Shown here piece by piece: positions 951 to 61,279 of a stretch of DNA of 64,000 nt. Under the pieces are notes generated by a model. It did no database searches and was not told where the DNA came from. It saw only the letters and a program-made list of their open reading frames with translations. Each line of letters starts with the position of its first letter. Position 1 is the first letter of the stretch. The stretch lies in NCBI RefSeq assembly GCF_034366785.1, contig NZ_CP112932.1:620001-684000 (forward strand). Direction: 5' to 3'. The position numbers and the translations under genes were made by a program. The stretch is from Candidatus Trichorickettsia mobilis (lineage in GTDB: Bacteria > Pseudomonadota > Alphaproteobacteria > Rickettsiales > Rickettsiaceae).

Positions 951-1097
951 GAGCCTGTCAGATCAGTAGATATAAGAGGTAATTTTGCTCACTAAAAACG
1001 CAGGCGAAGTTCCGAAACAAACCAAAAGACTACTTGCGGTACTCGACTTCGTTTCTCCTAAAACTTCCTCTCTTATATCTACTGATCTGACAGGCTC
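951..1097. mobile_element. MITE-like palindromic element, copy A (147 bp)
   Basis: The element has inverted ends GAGCCTGTC and GACAGGCTC that continue as a ~30-bp near-perfect stem, and it is flanked by TAA on both sides (948-950 and 1098-1100). It carries no open reading frame of note. Compared with copies B (4325-4467) and C (11211-11353) it lies in the opposite orientation and its central part is diverged. It sits in the emrA-emrB gap. The ends and the 3-bp TWA duplication recall IS5-family elements of the IS1031 type, which is an inference from memory of that group. Confidence 0.8.
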
Positions 1098-4120: not shown

Positions 4121-4274
4121 TATTTCTCTCTAATAAGTTATTTGCAGCATGATGATAATTTTCAAACTCCTGATGGTCAAGAGATATCTATAATTTATGG
4201 ACAATGAACAGTTTAATAAGGTATGTATAGCAACGACCACTCAAGAAAAGATAATAAATTTAAGAGCCTGTCTT

Positions 4275-4650
4275 GAGAGTGTTCGCAGTTTTTAGAACAA
4301 GTCGTCTTGCTTGAGATTTTGTTAGAGCCTGTCTTGAAAGTAGATATAAGAGAGGAAGTTTTAGGAAAAACGAAGTCGAGTACCGCAGCGTACTTTTGGG
4401 TACGTGAGGAACGGAGACGAGTTTTGACGACAAAATTACCTCTTATATCTACTTTCAAGACAGGCTCTTAAAAATCAAAGCAATCCAGTCTTTAAGGTAC
4501 GCTCCTCTTACTCGAGCTGATTTTTGGATCACGCAAGCCCCCTAATGGCTCTTCGTGATGTGATACCTTGTATGTGCTTGTATGCGGTATAGCTTCGACC
4601 ATAAATGGTCTCAAAGCTTGATGATTTGACACAGCCCATTGAACACTATC
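4275..4650. repeat. Composite palindromic repeat (GAGAGTGTTC ends) carrying a nested MITE
   Basis: The stretch begins GAGAGTGTTC and ends GAACACTATC with TTTGACACAG just inside, an imperfect terminal inverted repeat. Inside is a tcgtcttgcttgagattttgtta ... gaagcaatccagtc type sequence whose uninterrupted relative lies at 36470-36600. The 143-bp MITE copy B plus a TTA duplication splits it at 4322-4470. Similar ends occur at 31042-31184, 36636-36650 and 49219-49230. It fills the psd-flhA gap and has no credible coding content. Confidence 0.65.
4325..4467. mobile_element. MITE-like palindromic element, copy B (143 bp), nested
   Basis: Ends GAGCCTGTC and GACAGGCTC are flanked by TTA at 4322-4324 and 4468-4470. 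Its core (gaagtcgagtaccgcagcgt and on) matches copy C closely. The stem next to the ends reads TTGAAAGTAG here but AGATCAGTAG in copies A and C, with the opposite arm changed to match. It has inserted into the older repeat at 4275-4650. Comparison with 36470-36600 shows the empty site ttgttaaaaatc. Confidence 0.85.
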
Positions 4651-10379: not shown

Positions 10380-10735
10380 GATTATATTTTATAGGTGGCG
10401 CCAGTGGCAGTGGTAAAACGGCAGTTATGCCTTATTTGAAAGAGCTGTTGGGAGATGGTATCGCTGTCTATGATTTTGATGATATAGGTGTACCCGAAGG
10501 CGCTGATAAAAAATGGCGTCAAGAATCCACAGAGAAGTGGTTGCAAAAATTATTGAGTAATGGAAAAGATGCTTGTTTGCTTGGTCAAATTGTTTTAGGA
10601 GAAATTCTTAGCTGCTCTTCAGCTAAACAAATAGATAAAATCAACTTCTGTCTTTTAGATGTGAATGATTTTGAAAGAATCGGGCGGCTCAAAAAACGTA
10701 ACACCTATGGTGCTGATCAAAACATACTGAACTGA
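10376..10735 (+). CDS. P-loop kinase-like protein, C-terminally truncated
   Basis: The product starts MRLYFIGGASGSGKTAVMPYL, a Walker A motif at residues 7-15, and continues with YDFDDIGVP and an LLDVNDFERIGRLKKR lid-like segment. This is the pattern of small P-loop NTP kinases found in resistance clusters. The ATG at 10376 overlaps the upstream stop by ATGA. The frame ends after 119 residues, but recognisable continuation (RSAMNPHVIQED) lies in another frame at ~10760-10800, so a frameshift or deletion near 10735 has cut off the C-terminus. Substrate unknown. Confidence 0.65.
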   Translation: MRLYFIGGASGSGKTAVMPYLKELLGDGIAVYDFDDIGVPEGADKKWRQESTEKWLQKLLSNGKDACLLGQIVLGEILSCSSAKQIDKINFCLLDVNDFERIGRLKKRNTYGADQNILN

Positions 10736-10740
10736 TCCGC

Positions 10741-11016
10741 TTGGCTTCGCATGCACACCCGCGATCCGCAATGAACCCCCATGTTATCCAAGAAGATGCT
10801 GCAAGTATCATGGGGTTTAGCCGATTATCTGTTCTCAAAAGCTATGAAGTAGATGCTATAGAAAATAAAATAACAGCATACAATAACAGCCAAGCACCAT
10901 TCATCCAAGAACAACCTTTTGTAAATTTAAATTTTTGTATAAAAGATGATAATGGAGTAATTATCGCGGGCATTACTTCTGTGATGTATTGTACATTGCT
11001 TAAAAAGATCCATTGA
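10741..11016 (+). pseudogene. Junction of kinase tail and GNAT acetyltransferase N-terminus
   Basis: Residues from ~10741 to 10800 (MNPHVIQEDA) look like the missing tail of the upstream P-loop kinase. From ~10810 the sequence changes to a GNAT-like N-terminal half (FVNLNFCIKDDNGVIIAGI, beta2-beta3 of the fold), then stops at TSVMYCTLLKKIH without the acetyl-CoA site. Two genes have been joined and both are incomplete. No plausible ribosome site is present. A fragment of another gene follows on the opposite strand. Confidence 0.55.
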
Positions 11017-11543
11017 TTTGATTGGCTTAATTTCGAGGGTGGGATCTGGCGATATAATTTTACTTGGCTTTTGCAAGGAAAGTTTGGTACGCAAATGAAA
11101 ATTCCAGCCGCGCTATAAAAAGAGTGGATGATATTTGGCCTGACAGTACAACATTGGGAACTTGAGTCCTTCAACAATAGAGATTACCTCTGTCATATCT
11201 TCATCTGTTAGAGCCTGTCAGATCAGTAGATATAAGAGAGGAAGTTTTAGGAAAAACGAAGTCGAGTACCGCAGCGTACTTTTGGGTACGTGAGGAACGG
11301 AGACGAGTTTTGACGACAAAATTACCTCTTATATCTACTGATCTGACAGGCTCTTAACTCGCCTGCTATAAATACAAATAGATCGGGGCAATTCTCCATA
11401 ACTAAAATCGCTTTAGATGGTAGCTCAAATATTTTGTCGGTTTTTTGTTGCTCAATAATTTCTCAAAGAATTCCTTGATTAGGGAAGGTTTTGAATTCTT
11501 CAATAATCTTTTTATCTAAAATTTTATCCAAGTGTTTTAACAT
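11000..11543 (-). pseudogene. GNAT-like gene split by MITE copy C
   Basis: Reading the minus strand from ATG at 11543, the frame gives MLKHLDKILDKKIIEEFK ... ENCPDLFVFIAGEL and then meets the 143-bp element at 11211-11353. If the element and one TTA copy are removed, the same frame continues TDEDMTEVISIVEGLKFPMLYC ... RGWNFHLRTKLSLQKP. Two internal stops (TGA after FPNQGIL, TAG in HPLFL*RGW) and a broken end near 11000 show further decay. The original start overlapped the 3' end of the kinase at 11537-12106. GNAT-like assignment is tentative; gene splitting by the element is read directly. Confidence 0.65.
11211..11353. mobile_element. MITE-like palindromic element, copy C (143 bp), inside a gene
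   Basis: Ends GAGCCTGTC/GACAGGCTC are flanked by TTA at 11208-11210 and 11354-11356. It is nearly identical to copy B over the core and to copy A over the arms (AGATCAGTAGATATAAG). It is inserted in a degenerate acetyltransferase-like gene on the minus strand, and excision with one TTA restores that frame. No transposase of matching type is in the window. Confidence 0.87.
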
Positions 11544-36361: not shown

Positions 36362-36719
36362 AGTATTCTTATCGTTTTTTTGCATCTATCATCTCAGATT
36401 TGCTCTGACATGATTCCATAATATTCCAGATGTCCTTACTGAACAAACAGGAATGACATCTGGTGTAAGCGTTCACGGTTCTTAGAAAAAGTTGTTATTG
36501 CGAGATTTTGTTAAAAATCGAAGCAATCCAGTCTTTATAATGCTCTTCCCTTACTTGAGCTGATTTCTGGATCACCACGGAGCCTAACTCGTCTGATCTT
36601 GATATATCCCCACAAATTGTGAAATTCTTATCTTGGAGAGTGTTCAATAAACTAAAAAACTCGTATGCTTACCATCTACCACCCATTAAAAAACCGTTCT
36701 CATATGTAGAAGGTATATA
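36362..36719. repeat. Repeat-rich gap between sucD and bioD
   Basis: The gap holds a perfect 9-bp hairpin (CCAGATGTC 36426-36434, GACATCTGG 36455-36463), which may end the sucCD transcript. It also holds a gttattgcgagattttgtta...gaagcaatcc unit (36470-36600), the uninterrupted relative of the repeat split by MITE copy B, and the end word GAGAGTGTTCAATAAAC at 36636-36652. Nothing in it appears coding. Confidence 0.55.
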
Positions 36720-40622: not shown

Positions 40623-41339
40623 GCTTACTGCTAAATTAGTTATTGATTTATATGTTTGAGGTACTGCGCGCGTTTATGGTGTAGACAAAGTTTATGTACT
40701 CGTTTTATCTTGTGAATTAGCATTAAGTATAGCTAGAGTCAGTTATATGGTAAGCAACGCTATTATTTGAAGATTTATGAGCGTCACATAATATATACGT
40801 ATAGAGTTATTCATTAAGAGCCTGTCTGACACGTGCATCTAAGAGGTAATTTTGTACAAGTCTTGCTGTGCCTACATAGTAATCTACGCTAACAGCCTCG
40901 TGTTTAAATTTATTCTGTCTGAACCTTAGTGAATTAGCTCTACGCTACGCTGCACGAACTGAAAAACTCTTGCTCTTTCGGTTGCAAGCAAAAACTATAG
41001 TTTATCCCACTTTTCGCTTGTACAGAGTATATATTATGAATGATGGAAATTTAGATTATTGTAAGAATAATTTAACAACTTATATTTCTACAATTTAATA
41101 TCAAACCATTTGATGATTGTCAAAGTTTATTTGAAAATAAAATAAATATTCTTTCTATTATATATATAATTTATAAACCAATTCAATAGGCTTCTCTCAC
41201 AACCTCTACTTCTGCAAACAATTGTACCATTACGCTCAGGCTTGAATCCTCAACAAACTTAATATATACATTACAAACCCGTCTGGCAAAAGCTGTAAAC
41301 TCCTACAGATAAATATTCATAAGCCGCTTAGGAATAGAT
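40623..41339. other. AT-rich intergenic region with degenerate repeat ends
   Basis: No gene is supported in these ~717 bases. At 40820 there is a single left end GAGCCTGTCTGACACGTGCA followed by taagaggtaattttgt, a truncated relative of MITE copies A-C without a right end. At 41187-41270 a decayed left half of the second palindromic family (ggcttctctcacaacctctacttctgc) is visible. The region presumably carries the rho promoter. Confidence 0.5.
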
Positions 41340-45158: not shown

Positions 45159-45178
45159 GAAAATGTGCGAATGATAGA

Positions 45179-45298
45179 CGAAGGTCAAAATCAGGCAGAG
45201 CTAGGAGTTCCGAAGTCGAGGAGCAGAGCGTACACTTTTGTACGTGAGCACCGCAGATCTTCGAGAACGACAACGCCAATTCCTGATTTTCACCGAGT
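45179..45298. repeat. Third palindromic repeat family, copy 1
   Basis: An imperfect palindrome with ends GGTCAAAATCAGG and CCTGATTTTCACC encloses a core gttccgaagtcgagg...gtacgtgagcaccgcagatc. A nearly identical copy in opposite orientation lies at 51535-51650. The core is related to the MITE core of copies B and C (gaagtcgagtaccgcagcgt). It sits just upstream of lptE and downstream of the RNase gene. Confidence 0.75.
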
Positions 45299-51534: not shown

Positions 51535-51650
51535 CAAAATCAGAAATTGGCGTTGTCGTTCTCAAAGATCTGCGGTGCTCACGTACAAAAGTGCACGCTC
51601 CCCTCCTCGACTTCGGAACTCCTAGCTCTTCTTGATTTTGACCTTCGCCT
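51535..51650. repeat. Third palindromic repeat family, copy 2 (inverted)
   Basis: Read on the minus strand it matches 45179-45298 at nearly all positions, with the same ends TCAAAATCA and the same core (cgaagtcgaggagg...gcaccgcagatct). It lies right after the dksA stop and could also act as a terminator hairpin. The two copies face each other across 6.2 kb that includes rne and phaC. Confidence 0.75.
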
Positions 51651-51714
51651 ATCCTCTCAGTATATACATTATCGCTTTTTATGAAATATTATCATAGTAT
51701 CTATTCACGTCCCC

Positions 51715-59968: not shown

Positions 59969-61279
59969 ATGACCTTAAGTAGCCGTGATCGTGCCCTGAT
60001 CTGGCATCCATTTACTCAGGAACAAACCGCAGAATTGCCAATAGTTATTACTAAGGGACAAGGATCATATTTGTATGATGAGCATAATAATGCTTATTTA
60101 GATTTAATCTCTAGCTGGTGGGTGAATTTACACGGGCATGCTAATATTACAATTGCCAATGCTATCCACCAACAAGCACTAAAGTTAGAACATGTAATTT
60201 TTGCTGGCTTCACTCATGAACCGGCCATAGAACTTTGTGAACGTATAAAGGCTTTATTACCACCGCATTTAACACGTTTCTTCTTCTCGGATAATGGTTC
60301 TACTGCAGTTGAAGTAGCAATGAAGATGGCCTATCAATATTGGAAAAATAAAGGTAGCTCAAAACGTAATAAATTTATAAGTTTTGTTGGTGGGTATCAT
60401 GGCGATACTTTTGGGGCTATGAGTGTTGGTAGGCGTTCAGGATTCCATGATCAGTTTCAGGAATTATTTTTCGAGAGTGTAACTATTCCTTATCCGGATA
60501 CGTGGGATGGAGACCCAGAAGTGGAACAGAAAGAGTATGAATCATTAACACAATTACAGCAACTTCTTGAACAAGAGCATGAACAGATAGCAGCTTTTAT
60601 TGCTGAACCATTGGTACAAGGGGCTAGCGGTATGCGGATGTGTAGGCCTAACTATTTAAAGCAAGTAGTTAACTTGCTCCAAGAATATAATATTTTAATC
60701 ATTTTTGATGAAGTAATGACCGGTTTTGGTCGTACCGGAGCTAATTTTGCTTTTGAAATTGTAGATTGCCTACCTGACTTTTTATGCCTGTCCAAAGGAT
60801 TATCCGGAGGATTCTTGCCGCTTGCATTAACTATTACCAGCAATCATATTTATGAAGCATTCTTGAGTAATGATTTTAATACAGCATTTGCTCATGGCCA
60901 TTCTTATACCGCAAACCCCTTGGGATGCGCAGCAGCTAAGACATCGCTTGACTTATTACTTACAGCTAAAACACAATCTGCAATTCAGGCTATTAATAGT
61001 TGCCATCTACAATCTTTACCTGATTTAATGCGACATTGTAAATCTTTAAGGAACGCAAGGGTGCAGGGAACGATAGCTGCATTTGAACTAAATGCTAATT
61101 ATGCTTACTCAATGAAAGATCTGAAAGCACAATTTTTAACCCAAAGGTTGTTATTAAGACCATTAGGACGTACTATTTATCTATTACCTCCATACTCAAT
61201 AACTGTTGATGAATTAAATGATGCTTATTTAAAAATAGCTAATATCATTACCAACGCCGATTTATGCGTTTTATCCTAA
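59969..61279 (+). CDS. bioA: Adenosylmethionine-8-amino-7-oxononanoate aminotransferase
   Basis: BioA uses SAM as amino donor to make DAPA from KAPA. The 436-residue class III aminotransferase begins MTLSSRDRALIWHPFTQ, with SSWWVNLHGHANITIANAI, FFSDNGSTAVEVAMKMA, FVGGYHGDTFGAMSVGRR, IFDEVMTGFGRTG and the PLP lysine in LCLSKGLSGGFLPL. It is full length. It lies ~5 kb downstream of bioC with petABC between them. Confidence 0.96.
   Translation: MTLSSRDRALIWHPFTQEQTAELPIVITKGQGSYLYDEHNNAYLDLISSWWVNLHGHANITIANAIHQQALKLEHVIFAGFTHEPAIELCERIKALLPPHLTRFFFSDNGSTAVEVAMKMAYQYWKNKGSSKRNKFISFVGGYHGDTFGAMSVGRRSGFHDQFQELFFESVTIPYPDTWDGDPEVEQKEYESLTQLQQLLEQEHEQIAAFIAEPLVQGASGMRMCRPNYLKQVVNLLQEYNILIIFDEVMTGFGRTGANFAFEIVDCLPDFLCLSKGLSGGFLPLALTITSNHIYEAFLSNDFNTAFAHGHSYTANPLGCAAAKTSLDLLLTAKTQSAIQAINSCHLQSLPDLMRHCKSLRNARVQGTIAAFELNANYAYSMKDLKAQFLTQRLLLRPLGRTIYLLPPYSITVDELNDAYLKIANIITNADLCVLS

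Follow-up and report, generated by a model that had tools for sequence, protein, structure and literature searches.

Why do copies of one palindromic repeat in Candidatus Trichorickettsia mobilis differ in both arms at once, and in such a way that the two arms stay complementary? The question arises from a copy flanked by a phosphatidylserine decarboxylase gene and a flhA-type gene, within the 64,000-nucleotide stretch analysed here (the window). An earlier note on this DNA had attributed the pattern to selection for a hairpin or to arm homogenisation. Our comparisons indicate that the outer arms apparently co-vary in matched blocks as transposon ends, akin to the ends of nearby insertion sequences (IS), and not as a preserved RNA hairpin. 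The window contains three full copies of the element (A, B, and C) and one truncated end, with the following features:

951–1097, minus strand: copy A, RPE1-type element of the AGATC end type; target duplication TAA at 948–950 and 1098–1100; end blocks AGATC (960–964) and GATCT (1084–1088)
4325–4467, plus strand: copy B, RPE1-type element of the TTGAA end type; target duplication TTA at 4322–4324 and 4468–4470; TIGR01045 match
4334–4338, plus strand: left 5-bp end block of B, TTGAA
4454–4458, plus strand: right 5-bp end block of B, TTCAA, complementary to the left block
11211–11353, plus strand: copy C, RPE1-type element of the AGATC end type; target duplication TTA at 11208–11210 and 11354–11356; TIGR01045 match (L004)
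11220–11224, plus strand: left 5-bp end block of C, AGATC
11340–11344, plus strand: right 5-bp end block of C, GATCT
40814–40855, minus strand: truncated copy with a single end, of a third end type (TGACACGTGCAT)

The genome comprises 1,965,805 bases. Beyond A, B, and C, the stretches fetched from it hold at least 64 RPE1 cores, at least 51 of them near-full; each copy search scored at most 40 candidates, so that the copy counts are lower bounds. Against the NCBIfam model TIGR01045 (RPE1), the frame of copy B scores 27.3 bits (E 2.5e-6) and that of copy C 26.2 bits, both below the curated cut-off of 30, and a copy in a genome of the same family (L099 of G003) scores 32.7 bits, above it. Two frames of a type-II copy (L018) submitted to the same model gave no match. 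Judged by sequence, the element is RPE1-like and presumably homologous to the Rickettsia palindromic element (RPE) RPE1, with the window copies falling below the curated threshold. Passages of PMC2229807 describe RPEs as palindromes of 105–146 bp with terminal inverted repeats; B and C (143 bp each) lie within this range, and A (147 bp) exceeds it by one base. B and C are predicted to fold into long imperfect hairpins, with energies of −73.2 and −76.1 kcal/mol and z scores of −11.3 and −12.2, respectively. RPEs are well known as mobile DNA within protein genes. Among 109 near-full copies, eight sit inside a frame that is open for at least 30 codons on both sides, seven of which run in the same direction as the element: five in G025 and one each in G035, G019 (the copy in opposite sense), and the present genome, none of them a window copy. 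A tblastn search of plasmids with the RPE1 peptide gave no match. The element thus resembles RPE1 (TIGR01045) in peptide profile, size, long imperfect hairpin, and in-frame insertion in genes, properties of RPEs given in parts of PMC2229807, and differs from it in its TNA target duplication of 3 bp, in having several end types that can be exchanged, and in its IS-like ends. Portions of a review of miniature inverted-repeat transposable elements (MITEs; PMC10969869) and of PMC2229807, PMC2635572, and PMC5656822 mention or describe RPEs, and coding palindromes are reported in mitochondria in a part of PMC6649704; among the open-licence titles and abstracts searched, we found none joining RPE ends to IS ends or dealing with paired RPE end changes.

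The compensatory change by which the earlier note had set B apart from A and C is real. Over their 143 bp, B and C have 10 differences. Every one falls within a 5-bp block that occurs in each arm, and all remaining positions are identical. When B and its twin at 616117 are compared with C and its twin on contig C15, there are likewise 10 differences, all in two paired 5-bp blocks. Elsewhere in the genome, the copies at 685896 and 1099724 differ at 12 positions, every one of them paired, and those at 616117 and 1029776 are set apart by another paired block (AG/CT), by a single core base, and by the target bases. Across the 41 near-full copies with GAGC-type ends on both sides (10 of 51 being dropped), the block types match in 37 (31 AGATC, 5 TTGAA, 1 TGACAC), are mixed in three, and have lost a base in one; the fourth end base is C/C in 29, G/G in 10, and mixed in 2. 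Among the 10 copies dropped, those at 501455 and 507505 also look mixed. One-arm states are seen directly: 1201639 differs from 1190183, within the element, in the right-arm block alone, and 72628 differs from 1099724 in the left-arm block and one further base. Since the target duplications of 1201639 and 72628 are intact, a crossover with another copy is unnecessary to explain them, and since the same holds for 814346, the third mixed-end copy, mixed ends may themselves be movable. Between AGATC and TTGAA, four of the five substitutions are transversions, for which a route through a wobble pair is impossible.

Testing covariation over the collected copies, as the earlier note had proposed, showed arm matching far above chance. 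The 51 near-full copies have a mean arm-to-arm identity of 0.881 over 28 nt, compared to a mean of 0.736 and a maximum of 0.813 after shuffling of the right arms, so that 0 of 20000 shuffles reach the observed value. For the 39 distinct arm pairs, identity is 0.848 against 0.690 in shuffles, and again 0 of 20000 reach it; both tests treat copies as unrelated. An alignment of 38 of the 41 copies (L002, L004, and L005 being omitted as repeats of B or C) yields 37 distinct copies. In these, 52 cells are changed on both sides against 13.6 in shuffles, with copies again treated as unrelated, and the covariation score is 0.171, compared to 0.061 when shuffled and at most 0.055 when slid. The same shuffle test in relatives was reached by 0 of 20000 shuffles in G025 (15 copies), 33 in G003 (12 copies), 985 in the nearest relative, G001 (12 copies), and all 20000 in G019 (13 copies). 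Arm matching therefore holds in some genomes, is weak in G001, and is absent in G019.

The mode of insertion is seen at a G001 copy whose counterpart in the present genome is empty: GAACT-TAA-[GAGC..GCTC]-TAA-GATATA stands against GAACT-TAA-GATATA, giving a 3-bp duplication of TAA. The site of copy B is apparently empty in G001, where about 62 bp lie between syntenic stretches that are separated by 397 bp in the window. In 29 of the 41 copies the two target duplications are identical; the left one is of TNA form in 40 copies and the right one in 39. TNA target duplications are typical of some IS5 groups. The part of the 2007 review PMC2229807 that lists the RPE target duplication enters it as a question mark. 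In the other 12 copies the two duplications are unequal; nine of these combine TTA with TAA, in some cases along with perfect arms. Such inequality could come from crossover between copies or from arm copying that runs into the duplication, and it is uninformative between the two, as TTA and TAA are each other's complement in any case. An orthologous insertion (1090202 here, 890547 in G001) shares both flanks, with 87.8% identity over 918 bp including the element, and its arm blocks differ; as the core also differs, repeated insertion into one site may be the explanation. A second pair, 1430864 and G001 515074, has one common flank and is hence informative for the left arm only. The pair 707860 and G001 1081498 was considered as orthologous and set aside, as the two sites may be different ones.

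The element was then compared across genomes. A search of 58 genomes, including the present one, gave matches in eight: full-length in the present genome and in G001, of the same genus, and mainly covering part of the core in six genomes of other genera. There the RPE1 core recurs with different outer arms that are again largely matched: TAGACCTCTTGCATAACC in G003, G019, and three G025 copies, with a nearly identical form in G010, and TAGACTTCCTGCATAAGTC or close variants in nine G025 copies; further arm types exist. In three genomes, RPE1 ends resemble those of local IS5-like elements. A multi-copy IS of G001, encoding HTH_Tnp_4 and DDE_Tnp_4 in two frames, carries TAGACCTCTTTCGAAACT at both ends in the six loci inspected, equal in 16 of 18 bases to one local RPE1 end type. 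In G019, an end TAGACCTCTTGCATAACT beside the DDE transposase of a decayed IS has 17 of 18 bases in common with the RPE1 end of that genome. On contig C21 of the present genome, an end GAGCTTGTCTTGAAAGTA, equal to the end of B in 17 of 18 bases, lies upstream of the start of a DUF4096-like transposase frame, which is a 37-aa fragment at the contig edge with one end visible (DUF4096 17.5 bits against a cut-off of 34.3, E 0.005). These identities were never reached by shuffled ends in 200000 trials each, for pairs chosen after the ends had been seen; end types other than the expected one share 4 to 14 of 18 bases with each IS. The support from end likeness is weakened because the IS of the present genome is fragmentary, an IS with AGATC ends, the commonest end type, was not found in this genome and the relatives examined, and the end types were compared after being seen; the G001 IS is the one observed with both ends, that of G019 being decayed.

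The TTGA kind of the GAGCCTGTC end, searched as the pattern AGAGCCTGTCNNGA, which excludes the AGATC kind, is rare outside the present genome and occurs in 10 of 85 genomes of the family: 12 times in the present genome, twice in G001, and once in each other. A pattern scan of public genomes gave a single match, in Methyloceanibacter, and one of viral contigs gave none. As a source of the GAGC ends we considered IS66, since in G005 a GAGC end precedes frames that resemble, and that we take to be, IS66-type; this candidate was rejected, as related copies start with GTAAGCG and the neighbourhood looks coincidental. A DUF4096 search of the present genome returned one weak match without a usable inverted repeat. 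Two copies in relatives are of note for their ends. L076 (G019, contig C22, about 10600–11500) adjoins or sits within a decayed IS transposase with a near-identical end sequence, and L182 (G001, contig C1, 681330) is a chimera of two end families, with a left end of the TAGACCTC type and a right end of the GAGC type.

We postulate that this palindrome of the RPE1 kind transposes non-autonomously. An IS5-family-like transposase, producing a 3-bp duplication of a TNA target, would recognise the outermost 20–28 bp of the element as terminal inverted repeats; the inner core would form an imperfect but conserved hairpin and would at the same time encode the RPE1 peptide. Several end types would coexist, and a new end block would enter a single arm by a short non-crossover exchange with another end, through template switching or gene conversion. 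Matching would be enforced at transposition, where copies with matched ends get moved and multiplied, and arm-to-arm copying within the hairpin would help. Exchangeable transposase ends of this kind, changed one arm at a time and kept matched by transposition, by arm-to-arm copying, or by both, are the account that we favour at a little over even confidence. In lacking a transposase and in its terminal inverted repeats, short TNA-type target duplication, and apparently local-IS-like ends, the element resembles an IS5-family MITE; it differs in that its core is common to several genera while its ends differ. Ordinary MITEs derive from a single IS by internal deletion. We offer more tentatively, and lean somewhat against, the proposal that RPE1 is an end-switching hitchhiker, a conserved core wearing the ends of locally active IS5-like IS, with both ends swapped as a matched pair; if true, this would account for how RPEs move. 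The empty site, the TNA duplication, and the local-IS-like ends together make the mode of RPE movement testable.

Arm homogenisation, the second suggestion of the earlier note, survives as a live part-explanation, though not a general one. Replication template switching in the hairpin would copy a change in one arm to the other, without any selection. Parts of PMC8604942 present template switching as an origin of compensatory changes and of arm homogenisation, and in parts of PMC8794818, template switching at quasipalindromes is described as altering several bases of both inverted arms in a matched way, which is the likeness to our case. Counting base changes in G003, G025, and G019, we found 7 matched and 25 one-sided, where independent placement of changes, with copies treated as unrelated, expects 0.16 matched; one of the seven is the outermost base and may be target DNA, and the count omits three G025 copies with other ends, cores that are not near-full, and inserted bases (for example, G025 34925). 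In G003, one change affects a single arm in two copies and both arms in another. These matched changes in single G003 and G025 copies need no transposition filter, and the arm matching within both genomes that exceeds shuffles points the same way. The matched and one-sided changes nonetheless number 3 and 7 in G003, 4 and 8 in G025, and 0 and 10 in the 13 copies of G019, so that some arm coupling acts, but not everywhere. Mixed ends are retained in 5 of 12 near-full G001 copies, compared to 3 of 41 in the present genome, so copies with non-complementary arms, which the earlier note had named as counting against its view, are many in the relative but few here. Inner mismatches of the hairpin persist among copies and in other genera. 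Homogenisation alone supplies neither a new 5-bp block nor whole new ends, and quasipalindrome correction leaves both the new end types and the likeness to IS ends unexplained. As the main cause, we regard it as unlikely.

Less probable still is a single gene-conversion tract that put an AGATC-type interior into a TTGAA-ended copy, changing both arms without coupling. It would fit the outer block that B has in common with 1029776, the identity of everything inside with C, and the mosaic of core modules among copies. The paired sites are mostly matched, however (the block in 37 and the fourth base in 39 of 41 copies), so that symmetric tract borders would be needed repeatedly, and tracts are observed that span the 5-bp block in one arm and leave the outer marker in place. 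We consider this reading improbable.

The remaining rival is selection for an RNA or single-strand DNA hairpin, such as a small RNA or an mRNA element, as the earlier note had first suggested. Within the 37 distinct aligned copies, 14 cells are changed on one side as against the 52 changed on both. The inner pairs at columns 23/137 and 29/130 are unpaired in 14 and 10 copies, respectively, and a third pair in nine, with the same inner mismatches in a group of related copies (314280, 373632, 511009, 1319666, 1390719, and 1442615). A stem kept paired, with changes passing through G-U, as a structured RNA would show, was not seen in these 37 copies. The very stable predicted fold and the covariation beyond shuffles speak for such selection, but it is disfavoured, and in our judgement very improbable, because of the excess of both-sided over one-sided changes, the recurrent unpaired inner positions, and the resemblance of the outer arms to transposase ends; moreover, Rfam at gathering thresholds matched two tRNAs only in the 64-kb window, and the core is the conserved part while the arms vary wholesale between genera. 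The pattern is as expected of a DNA end recognised by a protein, not of a stem obliged to stay paired throughout. Arm covariation in a repeat alone is no proof of RNA structure.

Other repeats were noticed near the element. A solo end, GAGCCTGTCTTGAGAG, lies at 4264–4280 of the window, 61 bp to the left of copy B and on the same strand, with no partner end noticed. A different repeat, 85% alike at 4468–4532 and 36511–36575, starts at the right target duplication of B. On contig C1, a mini-palindrome of about 65 bp (L041) ending at 61012 has the ends GAGCCTGTCTTGAAAATTGA and is without the RPE1 core. Finally, a 118-nt inverted pair in the window (45173–45290 and 51536–51653) is 93% complementary and distantly similar to the RPE1 core.
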